This document shows positions 25,830 through 40,134 of a DNA stretch of 43,326 nt, piece after piece. The notes under the pieces are model-generated. The model saw only the letters and a list, made by a program, of their open reading frames with translations. It had not been told where the DNA came from and did no database searches. The stretch covers positions 1 through 43,326 of the forward strand of contig QIAU01000163.1 of NCBI GenBank assembly GCA_003225055.1, in the 5' to 3' direction. The position numbers and the translations under genes were made by a program. Numbering within the stretch: position 1 is the first letter of the stretch; every line of letters starts with the position of its first letter. The DNA is from Acidobacteriota bacterium (GTDB lineage: Bacteria > Acidobacteriota > Terriglobia > Terriglobales > Acidobacteriaceae).

Positions 25830-27500
25830 ATGCAACGAATGTTTGACGAGCGGGTATGGCTGGAGTGGCTGGTCAAAGTCCGCGTCATCGTTCTCACCTT
25901 CTTGCTAGGCATCGAGCTGGCTATCACCCAGTTTACGCCGACGCCGCTGCCCATGCGGGCGTTCGTGAGCTCGATCGTGCTGTGGTATACGATCTCGGTT
26001 TTTTACATTCTGCTGCTCCCCTTCTGGCGCGAAAACCGGGTGCAAGCGGCAGTGCAGGTCCTGACCGACCTCGCGCTGGCTACCCTGCTGATTCAGGTAA
26101 CCGGGGGCGCAGAGAGTTCCCTGAACTTCCTCTATCCCCTGATCATTATCGTGGCCTGCATCCTGCTGCCTCGCGCCTGGGCCTATCTGACAGCGGCGTT
26201 TGCCTTCCTGCTCTATGGCTCGATGCTGGAGCTGAACTATTTCGGGATGATTCCCTCCTACACCGCCAGCCACCCGGAGTGGAAGTCGCTGCAGGCCATT
26301 ATCTTTATCAATCTCTTCGCTTACCTGATGGTCGCTTATCTGGCGGGACAGCTCGCGACCAAGCTGCGCCAGGTTGGCGTCCAGCTCGAGGACACCAGCG
26401 GCGCCTTGAAAGACTTAAGGGCCCTGCACGAAAACATCATTCAATCGATCAGCGGAGGGATCGTCACGACCGGTCTGGACGGCCACATCACCCTGGTAAA
26501 CGAGGCGGGAGAAAAGCTGCTGGAGCACAGCGAGAGCGAGCTGGTGGGAAAGCCAATCGGTGACTTGTTCATCGATCCACTTCCTTACGTGAGTACAGAG
26601 CGGACGCATGGGGAAGTCCGTAAGATTGCCGCCAATGGTTTCCGAAAAACCTTCCGCGTGATCGTCTCCACGCTGCGCGTGGCCGACCGGGGCGTGCTGG
26701 GACAGGTTTACAGTTTCGACGATCTGACCGAGATCCGCCGCCTGGAGCGCGAGGTACGCATGCAGGACCGGTTGGCGGCAGTGGGGCGGCTGGCGGCGGC
26801 CATCGCCCACGAAATTCGCAATCCTCTGACATCGATTGCCGGATCGGTGCGGATGCTGGAAGCAATCTCCAGCCTGACCGACGAGCAGCGCACGCTGGTT
26901 GAGATCGTCACCCGTGAATCGGAGCGGCTGAACAACATCATCACCGATTTCCTGGCCTATTCCCGAGGCAAGCAATACAAGTTCGAGAGAGTCGACCTGG
27001 TGCCGTTACTGGAAGACACGCTCACGCTGTTGGAAAACCGCCTGGTCAACGAAGAGCGGGGAATCCCTGTCCAACGAAGGTTCTCGACCGACAACGCCTT
27101 TGTTTTGGCCGATGGCGACAAAATCAAGCAGGTGTTCTGGAATTTTTGCGAGAACGCCGTGCGCGCCATGCCGAAGGGAGGCACGCTAACGGTCTCGGTA
27201 GAGGCCATCGGCGACGACTGGCAGGTCAACTTTGCCGACACCGGCCCGGGCATGACCCCGCAGCAGAGCGAAAAAATCTTCGAGCCATTCCAGTCGCAGT
27301 TTGAAGGGGGGACCGGACTGGGCCTGGCCATCGTCTACCAGATCGTGCAGGCACACGAAGGCAAGGTCTGGGTACGCTCCAAGCCAGGGCAAGGCACAAC
27401 CTTTGTGCTGCGCTTACGCCGCAGCCACGAACATGCGTTGGCTCCTCCCCGCGCCGCGCTGAACGCCGCCGCCGCAGCCGGTGGGAGGGCGCATGCCTAA
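25830..27500 (+). CDS. pilS: PilS-type membrane sensor histidine kinase
   Basis: 556 aa. N-terminal block of about six hydrophobic segments (residues 20-175), then a PAS-like domain (IIQSISGGIVTTGLDGHITLVN), HisKA with phospho-His in AAAIAHEIRNPLTSIAGSV, and HATPase with NFCENAVRAM, DTGPGM and GTGLGLAIV. This layout and the position after pilC match PilS, which senses pilin in the membrane and controls PilR. The C-terminal tail is Ala/Pro-rich. It overlaps pilR by 8 nt. Confidence 0.88.
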   Translation: MQRMFDERVWLEWLVKVRVIVLTFLLGIELAITQFTPTPLPMRAFVSSIVLWYTISVFYILLLPFWRENRVQAAVQVLTDLALATLLIQVTGGAESSLNFLYPLIIIVACILLPRAWAYLTAAFAFLLYGSMLELNYFGMIPSYTASHPEWKSLQAIIFINLFAYLMVAYLAGQLATKLRQVGVQLEDTSGALKDLRALHENIIQSISGGIVTTGLDGHITLVNEAGEKLLEHSESELVGKPIGDLFIDPLPYVSTERTHGEVRKIAANGFRKTFRVIVSTLRVADRGVLGQVYSFDDLTEIRRLEREVRMQDRLAAVGRLAAAIAHEIRNPLTSIAGSVRMLEAISSLTDEQRTLVEIVTRESERLNNIITDFLAYSRGKQYKFERVDLVPLLEDTLTLLENRLVNEERGIPVQRRFSTDNAFVLADGDKIKQVFWNFCENAVRAMPKGGTLTVSVEAIGDDWQVNFADTGPGMTPQQSEKIFEPFQSQFEGGTGLGLAIVYQIVQAHEGKVWVRSKPGQGTTFVLRLRRSHEHALAPPRAALNAAAAAGGRAHA

Positions 27501-28887
27501 CAACATTCTGGTCTGCGACGACGAGCGCTCCATCTGCGAAGTGCTGGACATTGCGCTGCGCCGCGAGGGGCACAAGGTCGAGACCGTGAATTCTGGCGAG
27601 GCAGCTAAGAAGAAGATTGATGGCGCCCTTTATGACGTGATCGTCACTGATATCAAGATGCCCAAGACCAACGGCATCGAGGTGCTGCGGCATGCCCACC
27701 AGGTCTCGCCTGACTCGGCCGTCATCCTGATCACCGCGGTTGACGACTACGAGGCCGCCGTACAGGCTGTCAAGGCCGGTGGCGCATCCGACTACATTCG
27801 CAAGGGCCCGGCTCTGGTGGACGAGATCAAGCTGGCAATCCGCCGATCGCTCGAGAAAGTTGCTCTCAGCCGCCAGAACTTCGCACTCAAGCGCGATGCT
27901 GCCACCCGCAATTCGCTGGACAACATCGTGGGTGTCAGCGCCGCCATGGAAAAGCTGAAGCAGACGATTCGCACGGTGGCTTCGACCAGCAGCACGATTC
28001 TGGTTCATGGCGAGAGCGGAACCGGAAAGGAATTGGTTGCTCGCGCCGTCCATGCCTGCTCGCCACGAGCTGCCGAACCGTTTGTTTCGGTGAACTGCGG
28101 AGCATTTCCCGAGACCCTGCTGGAAAGCGAGTTGTTCGGTTACGTGAAAGGCGCTTTTACTGGCGCCAATCAGAATAAGCGCGGCCTCTTCGAAGTGGCC
28201 GATGGCGGGACCATGTTCTTGGATGAAATCAGCGAGATGAGCCTGGCCATGCAGGTCAAGCTGTTGCGCGTCCTGCAGGAACGGACGGTGCGTCCCGTCG
28301 GCGGTACCGACGAGATCGCCATCGATGTTCGCGTGATTGCTGCGACCAACCGCGATCTTGACAGGCTGGTCTCGGACAACACCTTCCGGGAAGATCTGTA
28401 TTACCGGCTGAACGTAATCCCGATTTCGGTTCCGCCCTTGCGCGAGCGCCGCGAGGATGTCGCTTTGCTCGTCAATCATTTCCTCAAGAAGTATGCGCCC
28501 GCGGCAGGGAAGAGCATTGTGCGGGTGAACCAGCATGCTCTGAACGCACTCTGTGGTTACGAGTGGCCGGGCAACGTTCGCCAACTGGAGAATACCGTCG
28601 AACGCGCGGTTGCGCTGGAAATGGGTGAAGAACTCGAGGTGGAACTGCCGGTTGAGCGTCCCAAGGCCCGTCGGGCGGCGGCGGGCGTGGGCCTAGCCGG
28701 CACCCAAGTAAGCTCAGCCGGGGTTCTCCCTGAAGGCATGGACATGGAAAAGTACGTCGCCGATATCGAGCGCTCCTTGCTCCAGGCGGCCCTGGGGCAA
28801 TCCCACGGCGTGCAGACCAAGGCTGCCGATGTCTTGCATATTTCCTACCGATCGTTCCGGCATTTGATGAAGAAGTACGATCTGTAA
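27493..28887 (+). CDS. pilR: PilR-type sigma-54 response regulator
   Basis: 464 aa. Receiver with phospho-acceptor Asp in DVIVTDIKMPKTNG, AAA+ domain with Walker A GESGTGKE, canonical sigma-54 loop GAFTGA, Walker B GGTMFLDEISEM, and a C-terminal Fis-like HTH (QTKAADVLHISYRSFRHLMK). The start is ATG 27493 behind GGGAGGG; an upstream GTG at 27481 would add four residues. The intact GAFTGA contrasts with the NtrX-type regulator in this window. Expected targets are pilin promoters, and no pilin gene is in the window. Confidence 0.9.
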   Translation: MPNNILVCDDERSICEVLDIALRREGHKVETVNSGEAAKKKIDGALYDVIVTDIKMPKTNGIEVLRHAHQVSPDSAVILITAVDDYEAAVQAVKAGGASDYIRKGPALVDEIKLAIRRSLEKVALSRQNFALKRDAATRNSLDNIVGVSAAMEKLKQTIRTVASTSSTILVHGESGTGKELVARAVHACSPRAAEPFVSVNCGAFPETLLESELFGYVKGAFTGANQNKRGLFEVADGGTMFLDEISEMSLAMQVKLLRVLQERTVRPVGGTDEIAIDVRVIAATNRDLDRLVSDNTFREDLYYRLNVIPISVPPLRERREDVALLVNHFLKKYAPAAGKSIVRVNQHALNALCGYEWPGNVRQLENTVERAVALEMGEELEVELPVERPKARRAAAGVGLAGTQVSSAGVLPEGMDMEKYVADIERSLLQAALGQSHGVQTKAADVLHISYRSFRHLMKKYDL

Positions 28888-29238: not shown

Positions 29239-30045
29239 CTAGGATTCAAACACGATGTTGACATCACTGCCTTTGCCCCCTTCTACCAGCTTGGAAGCGG
29301 CTCCGCGGTTGGCGGCGATCTCCAAATAGCCCATGCTGCCGAGGATGCCAAAAACTTCGCCGGGAGCGCCCTCGGCGTAGGCGTTGCGGATCTTGGAGAT
29401 CTCCTTGTTGCCAATCACAATCTTAAACCCACGCTTCTCTCCGCCAAACACCCTAGGCGCGTCCTCGGGGGTGATGTTGGTGATGAGATTACCGAAGCGG
29501 TCTACCCTTAGCACCACGCCGCGCAGGGTGCGGCCATCCACCGGTTTAGGACGCGGCGCCGAGAAGCGGACAAAGTCGCTAACCTCGTCGCCCATGCGGG
29601 CAGGATCGACACCCTTGGCCAGATAAGCCGCAATGGGTGAAAAAACATCGCGGGCGTGAAATGTGTTGCTCACCGGCTGCAGGAAATAGTGGTCGGCAGT
29701 GATGTGGCGCACGCTGAGGCGTTCCTCGCGATCGTAAATCAACGACAGAACGCCATTGTCGGGCGCTACGAAAAAATATTTCTCGGTAGAAACCGCCAGC
29801 GCCCGGCGTTCGGTGCCCACTCCCGGGTCCACGACCACCATGTGTACCGTGCCAGCCGGAAAATACGCATAGGACTGCGCAATCGTAAGCGCTCCGTCGA
29901 GCACGTCGAAGGCCTGGACCGCATGGCAGATGTCCACAATCCGGACATCAGGCACCGTCGCCATGAGGACCCCTTTGATGGTTCCTATGAAATGGTCCTG
30001 AATACCAAAGTCGGTGGTCAGGGTGATGATCGGGGGTTGAGCCAC
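29239..30045 (-). CDS. SAM hydroxide adenosyltransferase family protein (DUF62)
   Basis: 268 aa. Family members split S-adenosylmethionine with water/hydroxide to adenosine and methionine; relatives are the fluorinase and chlorinase. Signatures: ITLTTDFGIQDHFIGTIKGV at the N-terminus, VDICHAVQAFDVLDGAL, VHMVVVDPGVGTERRALAV, VAPDNGVLSLIYD, NTFHARDVFSPIAAYLAKG and the C-terminal VLRVDRFGNLITNI. The start is GTG at 30045 after AAAGGA. Downstream of the exporter cluster on the same strand, but 137 nt away with a period-7 repeat between, so co-transcription is uncertain. Confidence 0.87.
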   Translation of the reverse strand: MAQPPIITLTTDFGIQDHFIGTIKGVLMATVPDVRIVDICHAVQAFDVLDGALTIAQSYAYFPAGTVHMVVVDPGVGTERRALAVSTEKYFFVAPDNGVLSLIYDREERLSVRHITADHYFLQPVSNTFHARDVFSPIAAYLAKGVDPARMGDEVSDFVRFSAPRPKPVDGRTLRGVVLRVDRFGNLITNITPEDAPRVFGGEKRGFKIVIGNKEISKIRNAYAEGAPGEVFGILGSMGYLEIAANRGAASKLVEGGKGSDVNIVFES

Positions 30046-30182: not shown

Positions 30183-31439
30183 CTATTCGTACCGCAAAGC
30201 TTCAATGGGGTTCAATCGCGCCGCCTTCCAGGCCGGAAAGAAACCCGACACCATGCCTACTAGCGACAGAAGGATGAAGGACGCGGCCATCACGCTGGTA
30301 GAGGCGTCAAGAAAGATGTCGCCCTCGTGATTCGTGGTCTTGTAGAACTCGCTGTACAAAGGCATGGGCGGGATGACCCAGGTTAAAAAGACGGCCAAAG
30401 CCATGCCCACGATCCCTCCCGCAAAGCTGAGCACCAGCGCTTCGAGCAGGAATTGAATCAGGATGTGCCTGGGCCGTGCACCGACCGCCTTGCGCAATCC
30501 GATCTCGCGGGTGCGCTCGCTCACCGAAACCAGCATGATATTCATCACGCCCACACCACCCACGCCCAGGGTGACGGCACCAATCAACCCAAGCACGGCC
30601 TCCAGTCCCAGCGAGAACCGATTGACCATGGCGCGGTCTTCGATGGTGTCCCAGGTTGGTGTTGCCTTGTCGTCCTTGGGGTCAAAATGGTGCCGCCGTG
30701 CCAAGACTTCGCGCACCGCTGCCAGCGCTTTCTTGTTCAGCTCTGGCGCCGTCGGCTGAATGACGATCATCTCCGGGTCTTTAATGTTCTTGAGATCGCG
30801 GAACAGTTGGAAGGGAATAAACCCGTCTTCGTTGTCGGGGCCGTTATACATCGAGTCCTGGATCTTGTTGCGCATCACGCCGATTACTTCAAAATCGAGG
30901 CCACCGATCGTGACGTCCTGCCCCACGGAAGGGGCTCCCTGGAAAATACGCCGTGCCGCCTGGTAACCGAGAATGACCACGCGGTGGTGCTCGGTGAAAT
31001 CAGTTTCGGTGAAGTAGCGGCCATCCTCCAGGTCGAGCTTGCGCATTTGCCCGTAGGGCATCTCGATGCCGCGGGTCATCACCGAGACAACTCGGGTTCC
31101 GGTTTTATACCCGAAGTCGCGTGTCGCTTCGGCGCTTACGGCTCGCACGATGGGGACCTGGTCGCGAATAGCTTCCACATCGGCGTATTCGTAAAGCACG
31201 CGCTTGCCGGCGCGCTGTCCTCCGGCCTGCATGCTGGTTTGCCCCGGCCAGAGGACCAGGACGTTATTGCCCATATTCAGGAAAGCATGCAGCACGCTGC
31301 TCCCCAGGCCGTGCCCGTAGGCCAGCAGAATGACCACCGAAGCCAAGCCCCAGACCATGCCCAGCATCGTAAGCAGGGAGCGCATAGGGTTGCAGATCAG
31401 CGCCTGCCAGCCTTGCAAGATGAGTTCTTTCAAGAACAT
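30183..31439 (-). CDS. MacB-like ABC transporter permease (FtsX family), copy 1
   Basis: 418 aa. N-terminal membrane segment (MRSLLTMLGMVWGLASVVILL), a periplasmic MacB_PCD domain (about 45-265), and three C-terminal FtsX segments (LGVGGVGVMNIMLVSVSERT, LSFAGGIVGMALAVFL, FILLSLVGMVSGFFPAWKAA). The family motif SERTREIGLRKAVGARPRHIL is present. It lacks a nucleotide-binding domain, so it needs a separate ATPase. It shares unusual local motifs with copy 2 (YNGPDN, RRHHF) and the two could form a heterodimer (inference). It follows the DUF4097 genes by 15 nt on the same strand. Confidence 0.87.
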   Translation of the reverse strand: MFLKELILQGWQALICNPMRSLLTMLGMVWGLASVVILLAYGHGLGSSVLHAFLNMGNNVLVLWPGQTSMQAGGQRAGKRVLYEYADVEAIRDQVPIVRAVSAEATRDFGYKTGTRVVSVMTRGIEMPYGQMRKLDLEDGRYFTETDFTEHHRVVILGYQAARRIFQGAPSVGQDVTIGGLDFEVIGVMRNKIQDSMYNGPDNEDGFIPFQLFRDLKNIKDPEMIVIQPTAPELNKKALAAVREVLARRHHFDPKDDKATPTWDTIEDRAMVNRFSLGLEAVLGLIGAVTLGVGGVGVMNIMLVSVSERTREIGLRKAVGARPRHILIQFLLEALVLSFAGGIVGMALAVFLTWVIPPMPLYSEFYKTTNHEGDIFLDASTSVMAASFILLSLVGMVSGFFPAWKAARLNPIEALRYE

Positions 31440-31454
31440 GGACCTGATCCCAAA

Positions 31455-32432
31455 TTACAAGATCTCGATGTTGCCGGAACCGGTTTGTACCTCGATCTCG
31501 ACACCGCCACCGCGCACTCTGCCGCGGATTTCTTTGCGGCCGAGGGTTCCTTGGACGGTGACCGGGTGCTCGAGCGAGATCGAACCGGAACTGGTTCGCG
31601 CATTCAGGTCAAAGGAGGCATCGCTCGGTAGGCGGAGATGAACGCCACCCGAGCCGGTATGCACGATCCAGCCACCGGTCGGATCTCCTTCGGCGCGGAT
31701 ATCTCCGCTGCCGGCGCGGGCTTCCAGCGACCCGCGCACCCCGCGCAATTCCATCCCTCCCGATCCGGTCTCGACCCGCACAGCGCCAGGTGATATCTGG
31801 CTCAAGGTGATGCGTCCGCTGCCGGTATTGGCTTGAAAGCCGCCGGCGACATCGGTCGCACGAATCGAGCCGCTCCCGGCGTGGGCGCGCACATTGCCCT
31901 TTACGCGATCGATATCAATGTTGCCCGAGCCCGTGTCCGCACGCACGGTGTCGCCGATGTTGGATATTCTCACGCTTCCTGAGCCGGCGTTGATCTCAAC
32001 TGGTCCCCGGATGCCGTCCACAGTCTGGTTACCGGAGCCGCTGTGCGCCTTCATTTCAGTCTCGGCCGGTACGGTCAGCTCGTAGCTGATGGAAACGTTG
32101 CGGCGCAGTTCGGGGTCCTCAATGTGGCCGATGTGAATGGAATTGCCGCTCTGCTGAATGGGAGGGTCCGCTTCCAGGCGCCGGACCTTCTCGCGGCCGT
32201 TACCCGACCAGTCGCTGGCACGGATCCGTCCTCGCACCTCGACCCTATCGGAGCCGCCGGCGTGCACCGTAATCGTGCCCGAACCGGTGTTGATGTCGAT
32301 ATCCACCGGCCCGCTCACCTTCAGGCTGCGCTCAAATGAGCCCTCGACTCGGGCGACGGCAGGTACGGCACAGGCGACCGCAATCGCCATGCAGACCTCG
32401 AACCCGACCCTGACGAATAGCGCTGGTTTCAT
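31455..32432 (-). CDS. DUF4097 (adhesin-like GSG-repeat) secreted protein, copy 1
   Basis: 325 aa from ATG 32432, preceded by GGAGGG. A signal peptide (MKPALFVRVGFEVCMAIAVA) precedes a body of about 20-residue repeats, each with a GSG turn and short beta strand, for example HTGSGGV, NTGSGRI and QTGSGNI at the end. Ten GSG turns can be counted, plus one SSG variant. This is the DUF4097 putative-adhesin type, expected to form a right-handed beta solenoid outside the cytoplasm. No enzymatic motif. It lies between a second DUF4097 gene and permease copy 1, with short gaps, so it is probably made with the exporter. Confidence 0.85.
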   Translation of the reverse strand: MKPALFVRVGFEVCMAIAVACAVPAVARVEGSFERSLKVSGPVDIDINTGSGTITVHAGGSDRVEVRGRIRASDWSGNGREKVRRLEADPPIQQSGNSIHIGHIEDPELRRNVSISYELTVPAETEMKAHSGSGNQTVDGIRGPVEINAGSGSVRISNIGDTVRADTGSGNIDIDRVKGNVRAHAGSGSIRATDVAGGFQANTGSGRITLSQISPGAVRVETGSGGMELRGVRGSLEARAGSGDIRAEGDPTGGWIVHTGSGGVHLRLPSDASFDLNARTSSGSISLEHPVTVQGTLGRKEIRGRVRGGGVEIEVQTGSGNIEIL

Positions 32433-32468
32433 AAGCCCTCCGACTCTATTCCGTCGCAAAGTCGATGA

Positions 32469-33392
32469 TCAGTAAACATGAATATCGCCCGAGCCCGTAT
32501 GCACGTTAATAAGCGGCCCACCACCGTGAACGGCGCCGCTGATGAAGCGCCGCGATTCCTCGACCCTGCCCTGAACCGTCATGGTGATCGAGGGATCGAC
32601 GATAACGGTGCCGGAGGTCGTGCGTGCTTCCAGGTTGAATCGAGCCTCTGGGGGCAGCCGCAGTCGGACATTCCCCGATCGGGTCCGGATTTCCCAATTT
32701 CCCGCCTGCGCACCTTCGACGGTGACATCGCCGCTGCCGGCATCGGCGCGCAGCCCGCCGCTGATTCCATTTATCTCGATGTTGCCCGAGCCGGTATGAG
32801 CGTTCACTTCGCCGTCGGTTTTTTCTTCCAGGCGAATATCTCCGCTGCCCGCCTCCGCGGTAATGGGGCCGGCGATGCTGCCAGCTTCGATATTACCCGA
32901 ACCAGTATGCACCTCGACGTGTCCTGTCAGGTGGGAAAGCCGCAGGTCGCCGGAACCGCTCTCCAGATCCAGGTCGGCGCCCAAATCCTGGATGGTCTGG
33001 TCTCCCGAATCGCTGCGGGTGCGCACCCGAGTATCCGCCGGAACCGCGATTTCGTAGTCAATCGAAATATTCCGCAGGTCCACGTAATCGATCCGAATAC
33101 TCCCTCCAGACTGGCGAATGGGAGGATTCTGTTCCAGTTTCTCGACCTCGGCCTGCTTGCCGCCATGCCACCAGGCCTCGCCCACGTGGATTTTTCCGGA
33201 GACCGCAACCGTGCCCGCCGGCCCACCGCGCACGATGACATCGCCCGAGCGAGTGAAAATCTCCAGATCGGCGTGGCCGTTTACTTGAAACGTGCGCTCG
33301 AATGCTCCCTCGACAGAAGAGGCGTGGGCCAGGCTAATCGACAGAAGGACGATGAGGGTTGCTATGCCGAATTTCCAGGCTGAGGTGCGCAT
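32469..33392 (-). CDS. DUF4097 (adhesin-like GSG-repeat) secreted protein, copy 2
   Basis: 307 aa from ATG 33392 (MRTSAWKFGIATLIVLLSIS, signal peptide ending near AHA). The body has the same GSG-turn repeats (HTGSGNI, EAGSGDI, DAGSGDV, HTGSGDI) and ends with GSGDIHVY. Both paralogues share the opening GSFERS/GAFERT block and a DPPIQQSG/NPPIRQSG block after a charged helix. Tandem duplication followed by divergence is likely. It starts 16 nt after the stop of permease copy 2. The longer frame upstream (to 33416) overlaps that permease and is not needed. Confidence 0.85.
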   Translation of the reverse strand: MRTSAWKFGIATLIVLLSISLAHASSVEGAFERTFQVNGHADLEIFTRSGDVIVRGGPAGTVAVSGKIHVGEAWWHGGKQAEVEKLEQNPPIRQSGGSIRIDYVDLRNISIDYEIAVPADTRVRTRSDSGDQTIQDLGADLDLESGSGDLRLSHLTGHVEVHTGSGNIEAGSIAGPITAEAGSGDIRLEEKTDGEVNAHTGSGNIEINGISGGLRADAGSGDVTVEGAQAGNWEIRTRSGNVRLRLPPEARFNLEARTTSGTVIVDPSITMTVQGRVEESRRFISGAVHGGGPLINVHTGSGDIHVY

Positions 33393-33408
33393 GGGAAGTC
33401 TCCTCGCT

Positions 33409-34665
33409 TCACTCATGGCGGAGCGACTCGACCGGCGTCATCTCTCGAGCTCGTTGCGCCGGATACATGCCGGCAATGAACGCGACCAGCGATAGTGTGA
33501 AAATGGCAGCCACGATCGATACCGGAGAAATAATCGGATGGGGAACGAAGTCGGGCAAAGGCACTGCCTGGAGTGCGAGACACAGGCCCATGCCGAGGAA
33601 CAATCCCAGGACGCCGCTAATCGAGGTCAACACCGCGGACTCAGCGAAGAACTGGCGCAAGATATCGCGCCGGGTGGCGCCAATCGCCTTGCGGACTCCG
33701 ATCTCGCGCGTGCGTTCCGTTACTGAGACCAGCATGATGTTCATGACACCAATGCCACCCAGGCAAAGGGTCATAATGGCTACACATCCGAAAAACAGGG
33801 TGACTACGTCGAAGATTTTCTTCAACTGTCGCGACCCGTCCATGGTGTCCCAGATGAAGAGTGCATCCTTGTCTTTATCATCAAAATGGTGCCGGCGGCC
33901 AAGCGAGCGCCGCACCTGGGCGACAGCCTCTTCGTGGGTCTCCGGGTCAGATACTTCGAACACGATGTTGTCGAGGTAGCCTTTCACCATGCCGGGTTTA
34001 TTCCCGGGCGGCGGGAAATCGCGCGAGACTGCCGAATATGGCGCAAACAGATAATCGTTATCTGGGCCGTTGTAATTCGAATTCTGCTTCTTTTCCTGGA
34101 GAACACCCACCACGGTGTAGGGAATGCTTTTCACCGAGATGGTCGACCCTACAGCCGGCTGTCCGGGAAAGAGCTGCCGGCGCGCGGCATAGCCCAAAAC
34201 GGTCACGCGCCGGCCATCGCGTTCATCCTCTTCGGTCAATAGCCTTCCTTCTCCCAGCAGCAGGGAGCGGAAATCCTGGTAAGTGGGCCACATCCCCACC
34301 ACACCGCGGTTCGCCGAGTTGAACTGGCTGACTTCGCGAATCGTGCGCCGCAGTTCCGGGCTGACATTCTTCACGTAATAGCACTCATCCCGAATGAGAC
34401 GGGCATCGTCGATGGTCAGCGTGATCTCGCGACCCGCGGCGAGTCCGCCGACCTGGGAGCTGGTGCGCCCGCCCCAGACGATCACCAGGTCTTTGCCCAG
34501 GGTTTTCATGTGCTCCTTCTGGTCCACCATGAAGCCCTTGCCCAGACCCACCAAGATGATCACCGACGCGATTCCCCAGATGATTCCGAACATCGTAAGG
34601 AAGCTCCGCATCTTGTGAGCCCGGAATGTGCCCAGCGTTTGGCGGAGGATTTCGAGGAGGTTCAT
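33409..34665 (-). CDS. MacB-like ABC transporter permease (FtsX family), copy 2
   Basis: 418 aa, the same length as copy 1. N-terminal membrane segment MRSFLTMFGIIWGIASVIIL, MacB_PCD periplasmic domain (about 45-270), then LCLGGIGVMNIMLVSVTERT, SGVLGLFLGMGLCLAL and VAAIFTLSLVAFIAGMYPAQ. The motif TERTREIGVRKAIGATRRDIL is intact. It shares YNGPDN and RRHHFDDKDKDA-type segments with copy 1. No ATPase domain. It is first of the four tightly spaced genes; the adaptor gene lies 156 nt upstream across a repeat-containing gap. Confidence 0.87.
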   Translation of the reverse strand: MNLLEILRQTLGTFRAHKMRSFLTMFGIIWGIASVIILVGLGKGFMVDQKEHMKTLGKDLVIVWGGRTSSQVGGLAAGREITLTIDDARLIRDECYYVKNVSPELRRTIREVSQFNSANRGVVGMWPTYQDFRSLLLGEGRLLTEEDERDGRRVTVLGYAARRQLFPGQPAVGSTISVKSIPYTVVGVLQEKKQNSNYNGPDNDYLFAPYSAVSRDFPPPGNKPGMVKGYLDNIVFEVSDPETHEEAVAQVRRSLGRRHHFDDKDKDALFIWDTMDGSRQLKKIFDVVTLFFGCVAIMTLCLGGIGVMNIMLVSVTERTREIGVRKAIGATRRDILRQFFAESAVLTSISGVLGLFLGMGLCLALQAVPLPDFVPHPIISPVSIVAAIFTLSLVAFIAGMYPAQRAREMTPVESLRHE

Positions 34666-34679
34666 GAAGCACCAAAAAA

Positions 34680-34700
34680 GGTCGCAGGTGGCAGGTCTCG
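34680..34700. repeat. Period-7 degenerate tandem repeat
   Basis: Units GGTCGCA, GGTGGCA, GGTCTCG in the gap between the adaptor gene and permease copy 2. Confidence 0.55.
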
Positions 34701-34821
34701 GGGATGGCAGCGATGTTTGCGGCGAGTTCGCAGGGAACTGATCGGCCGAATTCTGATAGCTGAAACCTTCAACCGATGCCTGAGCCCGGCGCCCTGCGGC
34801 CTTGGACCTGACACCCTCCTT

Positions 34822-36042
34822 TTACTGCAGAACGACCTGATCGCCTTCCTTCAGGCCGCTCAACAGCTCGGTCTTGGCGCCGTTGGAGATGCCAATATTC
34901 ACCGCCACCTTGCGCTTGCCATCCTTAGCTTTGGGGTCTGGCACCTCGACGGAAGCTTTCTTCTGGTTGTCGTACATGATGGAGCCTTCCGGAATCTGCA
35001 GCACGTTCTTGTGCTCTTCCAGGATGATTTCGGCGTTAGCGGTCATCTCGGATTTCAGCTCGCCACCCGGGTTGCTGATGGAAACCCGGACTTCGAAGGT
35101 CGTAACATTGTCCTTCTCGACCCCCATGGGGGAGATCTTAGTGACCTTGCCGGTAAAGGTTTTGTCTTTGAACGACTCGACTTTGATCCGGGCGGGCTGC
35201 CCCAGGTAGACCTTGCCGATGTCGCTCTCGTCCACCTTGCCTTTGACGTAGACTTCGCTGGTGTCGCCCAGGTTCATGATCAGGGTCGCCGAGGAACCCA
35301 GCACCAGGATGGAGCTGACCGCATCGCCAATCTCGACATCGCGGGAGAGCACGACGCCATCGATCGGTGATTCGATGTCGGTATAGCTGAGCTGCTCTTC
35401 CAGTTGCTTGAGGTTGGCGCGATCCTGCGCGACCTGAGCCTCAGCCTGGGCCGTCTTGGCGCGCAAGACGACGACTTGCGCCTTGGCCACATTCTGCTTG
35501 TTCAGAGCCAACTCATAGGCTTTCTGGGCATCTTCCAGAGCCGAGGTGGACACCACACCTTCCTTGGCCATGCCGACGGCACGTTCATAGGCCCGCTTTA
35601 ACAGGGGGACGTCCGGTCCTTCTGCATCCACCTTGGCGCGTTCAAAATCAGCTTCCGCACCCTTCATGCTGGCTTCAGCCGCCTGGAGCCCTGCCCGTGA
35701 CTGTTCTACCTGGGCCTGAATCTCTTCCTTATCCAGTTGAGCCAGCAATTGGCGCTTCTTGACCTTGTCGCCGGCATCGACGAAAAGCTTCTTGACGATT
35801 CCGCTGGCCTTTGACTTGACCTCAACCTTAGTGATAGGCGTGACCTTGCCGGTGGCAACCACGCTCTTGGCTAAGTCGCCCTTTTCGACCTTGGCCAGCT
35901 TCGACGGATCGATCTTAGTGCTGCCGCTGGTTGCGGCGATCAGTCCGCCTGCGATCACGAGAACCAGAGCCACACCGACCGAGACATAAATGATTCGTTT
36001 GCGCCGCTTCTTCCTGCCATTGCCGTTGATATTGCCGTTCAC
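34822..36042 (-). CDS. Membrane-fusion (HlyD/MacA-type) exporter adaptor
   Basis: 406 aa from GTG 36042. An ideal AGGAGG at 36048-36053 decides this start over an upstream ATG at 36078. A basic N-terminus (GNGRKKRRKR) is followed by a membrane anchor (VSVGVALVLVIAGGLIAA), a lipoyl half-motif (KSKASGIVKKLFVDAGDKVK), a long coiled coil (about 100-210), the second lipoyl half (ESPIDGVVLSRDVEIGD), a beta barrel and a membrane-proximal domain. Such adaptors bridge MacB-type permeases to an outer-membrane channel. No TolC homologue is in the window. Confidence 0.88.
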   Translation of the reverse strand: MNGNINGNGRKKRRKRIIYVSVGVALVLVIAGGLIAATSGSTKIDPSKLAKVEKGDLAKSVVATGKVTPITKVEVKSKASGIVKKLFVDAGDKVKKRQLLAQLDKEEIQAQVEQSRAGLQAAEASMKGAEADFERAKVDAEGPDVPLLKRAYERAVGMAKEGVVSTSALEDAQKAYELALNKQNVAKAQVVVLRAKTAQAEAQVAQDRANLKQLEEQLSYTDIESPIDGVVLSRDVEIGDAVSSILVLGSSATLIMNLGDTSEVYVKGKVDESDIGKVYLGQPARIKVESFKDKTFTGKVTKISPMGVEKDNVTTFEVRVSISNPGGELKSEMTANAEIILEEHKNVLQIPEGSIMYDNQKKASVEVPDPKAKDGKRKVAVNIGISNGAKTELLSGLKEGDQVVLQ

Positions 36043-36359
36043 AAACACCTCCTCGAGCAAAGTGTGGCTCTCCGGCACCCAATCCCTAGTACGAAGGTCT
36101 CTGGCGGATTGTTCCTGAGATTCATGGAGAACGTCCGAAGCAGGGCCGCGGGCTCAAAAACCAAGCCGGGTTCGGTGGTTAGACCGTCGAATCGAAAAAA
36201 TGGTAGCGGGAATTGCCTGGAAGCAGTGTACGGGAAATTGTCCTACTCTGCCAGTCAGTTAGCTCCATCCGCTCCATCTGGCGAGTCACCAGCGAACCGG
36301 CCCGAAGGATGGCTTGGAACCCGTGAGCAGAGCCTTTGGAATGTTAAAATTAGACTTCC
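36043..36359. other. Divergent intergenic region, no gene seen
   Basis: 317 nt between the adaptor (minus) and the CNNM gene (plus). The adaptor ribosome site is at 36048-36053. A TAAAAT lies about 10 nt before the CNNM ATG, without a good -35. No coding features or clear hairpins were recognised. Confidence 0.4.
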
Positions 36360-38312: not shown

Positions 38313-38340
38313 GAGAGCCGAGAACTGAGAACTGAGAACT
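38313..38340. repeat. Period-7 tandem repeat abutting the dppB-like start
   Basis: Units GAGAGCC, GAGAACT, GAGAACT, GAGAACT. The last T is the first base of the TTG taken as start of the next gene, so this array forms the immediate leader. Confidence 0.7.
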
Positions 38341-39257
38341 TGCTTCGCTATCTCTCCCAGCGCGTGCTGTACACCGTCCCGGTCGTTTGGCTGGTCGTGT
38401 CACTGGTGTTCCTGCTCATACATTTCGTGCCCGGCGATCCCATCCAGCAAATGCTGGGAGAAGGCGCACCGGCGGCCGACATAGAGGCCGCGCGGCATGC
38501 CTACGGACTTGATCTCCCGATTCGGGTCCAATACCTCAATTATTGGAGAGGCGTGTTACACGGCGACCTCGGTCCCTCGATCCGCTATAACCAGGGCGTG
38601 AGCAGCCTGATTGCTCAGCGCTATCCCTACACCTTGCAGCTAACTGCGGCGTCGCTGTTGGTCGCCATCGTGCTCTCGATTCCCGCCGGGGTGCGCTCAG
38701 CCCGAAGGCGTAATCGCTGGGATGACCGGGTGCTGGGCGTGGTCAGCCTGTTTGGGCTGTCGTTCCCCAATTTCGCGCTGGGTCCGGTGATGATCCTGTT
38801 TTTCGCGATCAAGCTCGGCTGGCTGCCGGTTTCAGGCTCGGGCACCCTGGCTCACTTAGTGCTTCCGGCCATTACCATGGGGAGCGCGCTCGCGGCCATC
38901 CTCACGCGCATGGTGCGGACATCCATGCTGGAAGAATTGGGTCAGGATTACGTCCGCACCGCTCGCGCCAAAGGACTCCCCGAGCGCACGGTGATTTATG
39001 GGCACGCATTGCGCAACGCGATGATCCCGATTGTCACCGTGCTCGGCCTGCAGTTCGGAGCCATGCTGGCCGGAGCCATTGTGACGGAAACCATTTTTTC
39101 CTGGCCGGGCATCGGGCGTTTGACTATCCAGGCAATTTCCAACCGCGATTATTACCTGGTCGAGGGTTCGATCCTGGCCATCGGCCTGACTTATGTGGCC
39201 GTGAATTTTCTGACTGACCTCGTGTATTCCGTCGTGAATCCACGGATACGGCAATAA
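38340..39257 (+). CDS. Dipeptide/oligopeptide ABC transporter permease (DppB/OppB type)
   Basis: 305 aa, six membrane segments. N-terminus MLRYLSQRVLYTVPVVWLVV with the TTG start at 38340; this is the canonical opening for the family, so the start is trusted despite the lack of a ribosome site. The segment LIHFVPGDPIQQMLGEGA and the EAA loop (DYVRTARAKGLPERTVIYGHALRN) are intact, and ETIFSWPGIGRL is the family signature. It pairs with the next gene (19-nt gap) as the second permease. No ATPase or substrate-binding protein is linked, so the substrate cannot be told. Confidence 0.9.
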   Translation: MLRYLSQRVLYTVPVVWLVVSLVFLLIHFVPGDPIQQMLGEGAPAADIEAARHAYGLDLPIRVQYLNYWRGVLHGDLGPSIRYNQGVSSLIAQRYPYTLQLTAASLLVAIVLSIPAGVRSARRRNRWDDRVLGVVSLFGLSFPNFALGPVMILFFAIKLGWLPVSGSGTLAHLVLPAITMGSALAAILTRMVRTSMLEELGQDYVRTARAKGLPERTVIYGHALRNAMIPIVTVLGLQFGAMLAGAIVTETIFSWPGIGRLTIQAISNRDYYLVEGSILAIGLTYVAVNFLTDLVYSVVNPRIRQ

Positions 39258-39276
39258 AAGCAACCGAGAGCGTTCC

Positions 39277-40134
39277 ATGTCTGCCGCCGCCATCTCGTTT
39301 CGCCGCGCCGCCGGGAGTAATCCACTGGCAACGACGGGCGTCGTGCTGGTGTCGATTTTTGTGGTGTTCGCGATTTTCGCGCCCTGGCTCGCGCCACAGG
39401 ATCCGGCCGCGATTGACTTGCCGCATCGCTTGTCGGGCCCTTCTCTTATGCACTGGTGCGGCACCGATGAACTGGGCCGGGATATCGTCTCCCGCCTGAT
39501 CTACGGGGCACAGATTTCCATGCTGGTGGGGAGCTCGGTGGTAGCGGGCTCGCTTTTCCTGGGACTCGTGATGGGCTCTATTGCGGGCTATTACGGGGGC
39601 CGGATTGATCGCTTCGTCAACGTCGTAGTCATGAATGCCTTTCTCTCCTTTCCGGGAATCCTGCTGGCCATTGCTTTCGTCGCGTTTCGCGGGCCGGGAA
39701 TTTTCAATCTGGTGCTGGCGCTCTCGCTGGGCGGGTGGGTCGGCTATGCGCGCCTGGTCCGGGCTCAGGTGCTTGCCACCCGTGAACGCGAGTATGTGGA
39801 AGCAGCGCGGGCTTTGGGCGCAAGCGACTGGCGCGTGATGGTTCGCCACATTCTGCCCAACATCATTCAGCCGATCATCGTGCAGGCGGCAATCGGTATG
39901 GCGGGCGCTATTCTTGCCGAAGCGACTATGAGTTTTCTTGGCCTCGGCGTGCCGCCGCCAACCGCCAGCTGGGGATCCATGCTCAACGACGGCCGCGCCC
40001 ACCTGTTCGATGCGCCCCATCTGGTGATGTTTCCGGCTGGCGCGGTCATGCTTGCCGTGTTGTCCTTCAATTTCATCGGAGACGCGCTGCGCGATTATCT
40101 CGACCCGCGCTCCCGAATCGAAGTCGGTCTGTAG
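39277..40134 (+). CDS. Dipeptide/oligopeptide ABC transporter permease (DppC/OppC type)
   Basis: 285 aa. N-terminal membrane segment (TGVVLVSIFVVFAIFAPWLAP), then HWCGTDELGRDIVSRLIYGAQ, the OppC_N/BPD_transp signature, an EAA loop (EYVEAARALGASDWRVMVRHILPN) and C-terminal TMSFLGLGVPPPTASWG. It is a partner of the preceding DppB-type permease; together they would form the membrane pore. It ends before a region of palindromes and a relic gene, and the usual ATPases (dppD/dppF) are absent from the window. Confidence 0.92.
   Translation: MSAAAISFRRAAGSNPLATTGVVLVSIFVVFAIFAPWLAPQDPAAIDLPHRLSGPSLMHWCGTDELGRDIVSRLIYGAQISMLVGSSVVAGSLFLGLVMGSIAGYYGGRIDRFVNVVVMNAFLSFPGILLAIAFVAFRGPGIFNLVLALSLGGWVGYARLVRAQVLATREREYVEAARALGASDWRVMVRHILPNIIQPIIVQAAIGMAGAILAEATMSFLGLGVPPPTASWGSMLNDGRAHLFDAPHLVMFPAGAVMLAVLSFNFIGDALRDYLDPRSRIEVGL

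Follow-up and report, generated by a model that had tools for sequence, protein, structure and literature searches.

A MacB-type permease pair without a neighbouring ATPase gene in Acidobacteriota: a candidate split exporter with its motor in trans

We asked what could drive an exporter whose genes supply two permeases and an adaptor and no motor. The locus in question lies in contig QIAU01000163.1 of an Acidobacteriota bacterium (assembly GCA_003225055.1; the whole 43,326-nucleotide stretch that was analysed is called the window below, and its source genome G000). Its five open reading frames (ORFs), all on the minus strand, follow one another in the direction of transcription as adaptor, permease 2 (perm2, here permease A), DUF4097-2, DUF4097-1 and permease 1 (perm1, here permease B). 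The reading that we favour, with reasonable rather than high confidence, is a split exporter resembling MacB and LolCDE, in which the locus would provide a heterodimeric permease and an adaptor, a motor encoded elsewhere (leading candidate, the ATPase C226 described below) would act in trans, and the DUF4097 proteins would be exported accessories or cargo. The features concerned are:

34822..36042, minus strand: MacA-like periplasmic adaptor (membrane-fusion protein), 406 amino acids (aa); HlyD_D23 93.9 bits, RND_mfp 172.1 bits
33409..34665, minus strand: permease A (perm2), 418 aa; MacB_PCD and FtsX, without an ATPase domain
33661..33738, minus strand: major coupling-loop region of permease A, residues 310-335, from conservation among A-type proteins
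32469..33416, minus strand: DUF4097-2, Toastrack beta-helix protein, probably exported, clade I; PF13349 87.4 bits
31455..32459, minus strand: DUF4097-1, second Toastrack protein, clade II; PF13349 88.3 bits
30183..31439, minus strand: permease B (perm1), 418 aa; MacB_PCD and FtsX, without an ATPase domain

ORF positions and domain searches bear out the five-gene order without an ATPase that an initial annotation had read from this DNA. Pfam domains above cut-off are HlyD_D23 and HlyD_3 in the adaptor, MacB_PCD and FtsX in both permeases and DUF4097 in both small proteins; no ATP-binding cassette (ABC) ATPase domain was found in any of the five proteins with Pfam or NCBIfam, and no ABC ATPase by a motif scan across the whole window. 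The adaptor ORF spans 34822-36078, and a start at 36042 yields the 406-aa protein; orthologs, 69-83% identical, occur in 8/12 loci of the window's family, seven of them 402-405 aa long and the eighth 391. Its RND_mfp score (cut-off 94.9) places it in that subfamily. The adaptor gene ends 156 bp before permease A, which overlaps DUF4097-2 by 8 bp; DUF4097-2 and DUF4097-1 are separated by 9 bp, and DUF4097-1 and permease B by 15 bp, a close spacing that suggests a single transcript from A through B. The start codon of DUF4097-1 is uncertain (TTG in the ORF list). Permeases A and B are 39% identical, and the paralogy proposed for them from their equal length and shared YNGPDN and RRHHF motifs holds within this pair, but the motifs are not family-wide: GP[DE][ND] occurs in 13/37 A and 9/34 B proteins, RHHF in 3/37 and 7/34, and neither in 20 ATPase-linked permeases.

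We then scored, in one script, 51 loci holding an A-type gene: the window, four further pairs from the source genome, and 12 ortholog, 20 paralog and 14 named loci. Flanks of up to 6 kb were available on each side (both flanks reached at least 3 kb in 43 loci and 6 kb in 18). No MacB-type ATPase was found within these flanks at any of the 51 loci, with ATPase matches below 60 bits left uncounted, which hid a cut protein in L079 (treated below). The initial annotation had allowed that an ATPase gene normally present here might have been lost in this strain; with such a gene seen in 0/51 loci, absence of an ATPase beside A-B is the normal state in relatives and not a loss in this strain. By ORF, permease B follows A in 47/51 loci; tblastn adds L056, L163 and L160 (the last cut by a contig end), which makes 50 of 50 assessable loci, L077 ending at a contig edge and being left out. 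Genes for an adaptor lie near A in 22/51 loci, and those for a DUF4097 protein beside A in 10/51. The source genome itself (7.4 Mb in 301 contigs) carries its four further A-B pairs on C292, C114, C11 and C60, none with an ATPase beside it. Among 60 relatives, orthologs of the window's A were found in 12, at 59-78% identity, and others have paralogs at 40-45%; named carriers of A-type genes include Terriglobia bins, Granulicella sp. L46, Vicinamibacteria bins and a Verrucomicrobia bin.

Two permease trees were built, one of 102 rows by a quick method and one of 44 rows by a careful method, and their outcomes concur. The 44-row tree recovers clade A (support 100/98) and clade B (100/99), and joins both with the fused chains described next in one clade (100/100) that contains no ATPase-linked rows and stands apart from the MacB/ATPase-linked clade (100/100). 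Under the midpoint root as drawn, A rows of the 102-row tree branch in several groups; three subfamilies recur, matching one another, inside A and inside B, as expected of a pair inherited as a unit. Judged by this co-inheritance, A and B probably assemble as a heterodimer.

The fused chains come from KSB1 (L169:2727-5261) and Aminicenantes (L170:1302-3860), where an adaptor is accompanied by one chain of 844 or 852 aa, respectively, with two permease halves and no linked ATPase. As candidates for an A-B fusion they were rejected: their halves group with each other (100/99), marking a separate internal duplication, and they therefore supply no Rosetta-stone proof of an A-B dimer. By this tree, the design is an independent duplication that ended in a similar arrangement. 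A model of the L169 chain (pLDDT 81, pTM 0.66) has no extra membrane helices between the halves.

In MacB, the ATPase is contacted by two coupling helices, the major one lying between transmembrane helices TM2 and TM3 and the minor one at the C-terminus (PMC5985334). We compared conservation over nine regions in 37 A, 34 B and 22 ATPase-linked permeases, leaving out L012_9536 as a misassigned ORF. In both A and B, conservation is highest in the loop at residues 310-334, with column identities of 0.75 and 0.78 (0.82 in the ATPase-linked group). Corresponding values are 0.44, 0.44 and 0.34 for the periplasmic core and 0.65, 0.77 and 0.76 for the C-terminal tail; the loop in the halves of the acidobacterial duplicated orphan permease (ADOP) family reaches 0.52, from only six sequences. 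Loops of A and B are 70-73% identical to those of ATPase-linked permeases, and columns 20-404 outside the loop 21-25%. Without an ATPase that continues to dock at this loop, such conservation would be difficult to account for; this favours an ATPase in trans, and we regard it as very probable that some ATPase works in trans with A-B.

The leading candidate for this motor is encoded at C226:52994-53770 in the source genome (hereafter C226), where a MacB-type ATPase gene follows that of a MacA-like adaptor and no permease gene lies nearby. Orthologs occur in 184/200 genomes of the class at E 1e-95 and are 65-88% identical among the matches listed. Their context was counted at 39 loci (L149 and L150, having no C226 match, were dropped). 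An FtsX permease was found at 0/27 C226 loci of the window's family, 25 of which have more than 2 kb of downstream sequence; in other families a permease pair lies directly downstream at 9/12. The permeases linked to C226 form a clade of their own, and the source genome has an unlinked pair of that clade on C24, one of its two members being placed with weak support (91/64) in the 44-row tree. G161 and G152, each assembled as one contig, have their best match to the A-member of the C24 pair megabases away from the C226 ortholog. In this family C226, if working, thus works apart from its permease genes. Within the class, C226 is found in 107/109 A-type-positive and 77/91 negative genomes (p 4e-4), and in the phylum outside the family in 27/28 and 139/235, respectively (p 4e-5; both Fisher tests, uncorrected for phylogeny); the 28 positives of the second test are those with A-type matches at E up to 1e-80 among 40 non-family genomes listed at 1e-72. 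We propose C226 tentatively as the motor of the A-B pair, stopping somewhat short of calling the assignment probable. A permease pair that is probably heterodimeric and needs an ATPase from elsewhere, one of the possibilities raised in the initial annotation, gains support from the constant tandem, the lack of a nearby ATPase, the retained coupling surface and the existence of unlinked ATPases.

Two observations on C226 loci may be recorded here. At L080:9598-13095, genes for GWxTD-domain and CarboxypepD_reg proteins lie divergently beside the C226 adaptor-ATPase unit, and a similar-sized gene pair is present in many relatives, those of other families included. In Zixiibacteriota (L233 and L234), a C226-type ATPase (70-71% identity) is preceded by an adaptor and followed by three permeases in a row.

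Several observations weigh against C226 as the partner, or against a split exporter in general. The coupling loop does not single out the permeases of C226: A scores 0.716 with these and 0.702 with other MacB permeases, and B 0.709 and 0.728. A pair of the L013 type is the better-supported partner of C226 in trans: in other families the two are linked, and 51/53 genomes of the window's family have a match to this pair (E 1e-62), vs 44/53 for the A type (E 1e-80). C226 is kept in the 77/91 class genomes just mentioned that have no A-type match, so that A-B is not what conserves it, and G009 retains C226 with neither an A-type nor an L013-type pair at the thresholds used. Conversely, adaptor, A and B occur in G055, which has no C226 ortholog at E 1e-95, and A-type matches are present in G079 and G259, where C226 is likewise missing; five of the 40 non-family genomes (G241, G259, G278, G427 and G454) lack C226 at 1e-88, and the 16 class genomes without it include eight of one family and four of another. 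Two ABC matches do occur near A-type genes. One is a 645-aa protein in L071 (31%), owing to which that A-B pair carries an ATPase label in the 102-row tree; the other is the cut protein at the end of L079 (34% over 107 aa, 56 bits), 5.2 kb from A on the opposite strand. We judged neither to be a MacB-type partner of A. Finally, a second MacB-type ATPase without a permease exists, C67 (L081:6890-7609).

This second ATPase gives rise to the explanation closest to our own, namely that A-B is driven in trans by C67, or by the ATPases C207 or C47 of complete MacB systems. C67 has no adjoining FtsX permease in the source genome or at 13 other loci of the family, it matches 58/61 relatives including G055, the genome with adaptor-A-B and no C226, and the coupling loops of A and B fit other MacB permeases just as well. 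C207 and C47, on the other hand, come with permeases of their own; C67 lies next to a permease at 4/7 loci outside the family, although this is a single distant FtsX protein of about 365 aa rather than a pair, whereas the C226 ortholog is linked to permease pairs at 9/12 such loci. On balance, we consider one of these other ATPases a possible motor and a rather unlikely one. (In the window's family, a small response-regulator gene often precedes C67.) That A-B no longer depends on any ATPase, and serves as a scaffold or sensor or draws on another energy source, would agree with the lack of a MacB-type ATPase near all 51 A-type genes, and the ADOP family, named for its lack of a linked ATPase, would be a precedent. 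The region that contacts the ATPase is nevertheless the most conserved part of these permeases, with the C-terminal tail close behind in B, and retention of a MacA-like adaptor in 22/51 loci points to transport; we find this explanation quite improbable.

The two proteins encoded between the permeases belong to the Toastrack (DUF4097) family, with PF13349 scores far above the cut-off of 22.9 bits and a beta-helix fold, and their proposed paralogy is confirmed by an identity of about 40%. A sequence search of the PDB with DUF4097-2 gave no match; its AlphaFold2 model (pLDDT 83) matches 3pet, 4qrk, 3lyc and 4opw at E up to 0.001, with modest TM-scores of 0.28-0.41 on the query. Of these, 4QRK and 4OPW are named Toastrack in PMC11237479. 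By eye, both proteins carry at the N-terminus a hydrophobic stretch closed by an AxA-like motif (AHA|SS in DUF4097-2), and signal peptides read in this manner suggest that both are exported; against this stands the prediction in the same paper, on the phage-shock-protein (PSP) response, of an intracellular Toastrack in other settings (PMC11237479).

Orthologs of the DUF4097 genes were sought near A-type genes. At the 12 orthologous loci, a single DUF4097 gene separates A from B in six cases and lies between adaptor and A in a seventh (G026), and the remaining five have none; the named loci L155 and L156 have one each, between A and B, and the window is the only one of these loci with two. In the DUF4097 tree, the two copies of the window fall into different clades (100/100) whose other members are single copies. 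Recent tandem copying in this strain was rejected on this ground, and an older duplication seems to have been kept whole in the window and partially elsewhere. Identity to the G007 orthologs is 51% for DUF4097-2, compared with 83% for the adaptor, 78% for A and 79% for B. In the source genome, DUF4097 matches are also found on five other contigs. In G001, of the same genus and assembled in 750 contigs, the best match to the window's A reaches 41% and no ortholog is seen, and the DUF4097 cluster may therefore be patchy even within the genus.

Presence in only 10/51 loci speaks against DUF4097 as a core subunit, and these proteins are most likely a lineage-specific exported accessory or cargo. 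Taken strictly as cargo, carried by Sec to the periplasm and then outward by A-B with the adaptor, they would fit their position inside the operon, their apparent signal peptides and the faster divergence of DUF4097-2 noted above; but 41/51 loci have no DUF4097 gene beside A, the PSP paper treats Toastrack as a membrane-stress partner (PMC11237479), and a variable gene fits an accessory role equally well, so that we regard the cargo role as unlikely. The initial annotation had further suggested that a permease and a DUF4097 gene were duplicated as one unit, which the window's order of permease, DUF4097, DUF4097 and permease does invite. The split between A and B is, however, far older than the DUF4097 insertion, and A and B are more widely spread than DUF4097 is at this locus; most A-B loci have no DUF4097 gene, close relatives have one or none, and the two copies belong to different clades. 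A duplication of the unit can in practice be discounted.

Comparison with characterized systems places A and B, by their periplasmic core, FtsX domain and coupling loop, among the MacB or type VII ABC permeases. They match the permease part of MacB (PDB 5lil, 5gko, 5nik) along its full length (profile E 1e-67, with A aligned to residues 270-664 of 5lil), share its coupling loop and likewise come with a MacA-like adaptor gene. They differ from MacB of MacAB-TolC in having no fused ATPase domain and in being two distinct permeases instead of one; with no N-terminal nucleotide-binding domain, they score 197 and 206 bits with the equivalog PRK10535 (cut-off 966), and the adaptor scores 156 bits with the MacA equivalog PRK11578 (cut-off 342). 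ADOP (TIGR03434), named for the lack of a linked ATPase, also has two MacB-type permease halves, and A-B shares with it the absence of an adjacent MacB-type ATPase gene, within the flanks of the 51 loci; the ADOP halves are on one chain rather than in separate genes; A and B reach 128.7 and 137.7 bits, and L169 and L170 218.6 and 204.1 bits, below its cut-off of 622. At about G000:C291 14080-35852 (L083 and L084), a run of ADOP-type double permeases is bounded by two MacB-type ATPase genes, at odds with the orphan label.

The E. coli system YbbAP (PDB 9ge6 and 9ge7), in which YbbA is the ATPase of YbbP, resembles the fused chains, 697 residues of the L169 model aligning with YbbP (Z 21.8, rmsd 8.5). 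Identity is 10%, and YbbP has two linking helices (PMC5985334). LolCDE is similar to A-B in combining two unlike half-permeases built as in MacB, with the ATPase as a chain of its own (PMC5985334); A-B differs in having an adaptor gene and no ATPase gene near those of the permeases, and the two permeases score 42.6 and 24.4 bits with LolC/LolE TIGR02212 (cut-off 362). An ATPase serving several transporters is documented for sugar importers, in multitask ATPases such as MsmX (PMC7658222), although these are type I importers and not type VII exporters. Phage-shock Toastrack partners share the DUF4097 domain and fold, and PMC11237479 reports a Toastrack operon with an ABC ATPase and a permease, which unlike the window's cluster has its ATPase; the two DUF4097 proteins score 100.3 and 90.1 bits with LiaG NF049997 (cut-off 285).

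Two genes flank the cluster and lie outside the proposed machine:

29239..30045, minus strand: SAM hydroxide adenosyltransferase (SAM_HAT), near the cluster in 4/12 family loci and in the named L155 and L156
36360..37736, plus strand: CNNM/CorC-type membrane protein, divergent, in the same place in 8/12 family loci

Beside the CNNM gene, at window positions 38340-40134 (plus strand), an OppB/OppC-type permease pair (BPD_transp_1) belongs to an ABC transporter that, by motif scan, is likewise without a local motor. A PilS-like sensor kinase and an NtrC-type sigma-54 activator are encoded at 25830-28887 (plus strand), and one or both are near the cluster in 3/12 family loci; the gene directly after B in L161 (Verrucomicrobia) encodes a protein related to the activator. 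The sigma-54 promoter pattern as tried had no match in the window.

Returning to the split exporter, we envisage a type VII (mechanotransmission) system with divided genes, in which the locus would give a MacA-like adaptor and the half-permeases A and B, pairing as a heterodimer. An ATPase encoded elsewhere would act in trans, with ATP binding closing the ATPase dimer on the coupling loops of A and B; by analogy with MacB, the movement would pass to the periplasmic domains and push periplasmic cargo outward through the adaptor. The candidate motor would be C226, whose gene is accompanied by that of a separate adaptor but by none for a permease, and the two DUF4097 proteins would be exported Toastrack beta-helices, lineage-specific accessories or cargo, inserted between the permease genes. 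Among the titles and abstract openings that searches of open-licence papers brought up, we found no report of MacB-type permease pairs, encoded as separate genes, that systematically lack an ATPase; the nearest named precedent is the one-chain ADOP family.

A wider extension, which we offer as a speculative possibility, is hub-and-spoke export in Acidobacteriota and neighbouring phyla, where the one widely conserved C226 adaptor-ATPase unit, which lies beside no permease gene in the window's family, would energise several ATPase-less permease pairs scattered over the genome, that of the window with its DUF4097 proteins included. If true, mechanotransmission ABC exporters would share a motor in a network where the permeases are what diversifies, and not the ATPase. 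If such pairs do borrow their motor, exporters in Acidobacteriota may escape annotation that looks for complete MacAB or LolCDE operons, and the power source of orphan permeases would become a testable question with a named candidate gene.

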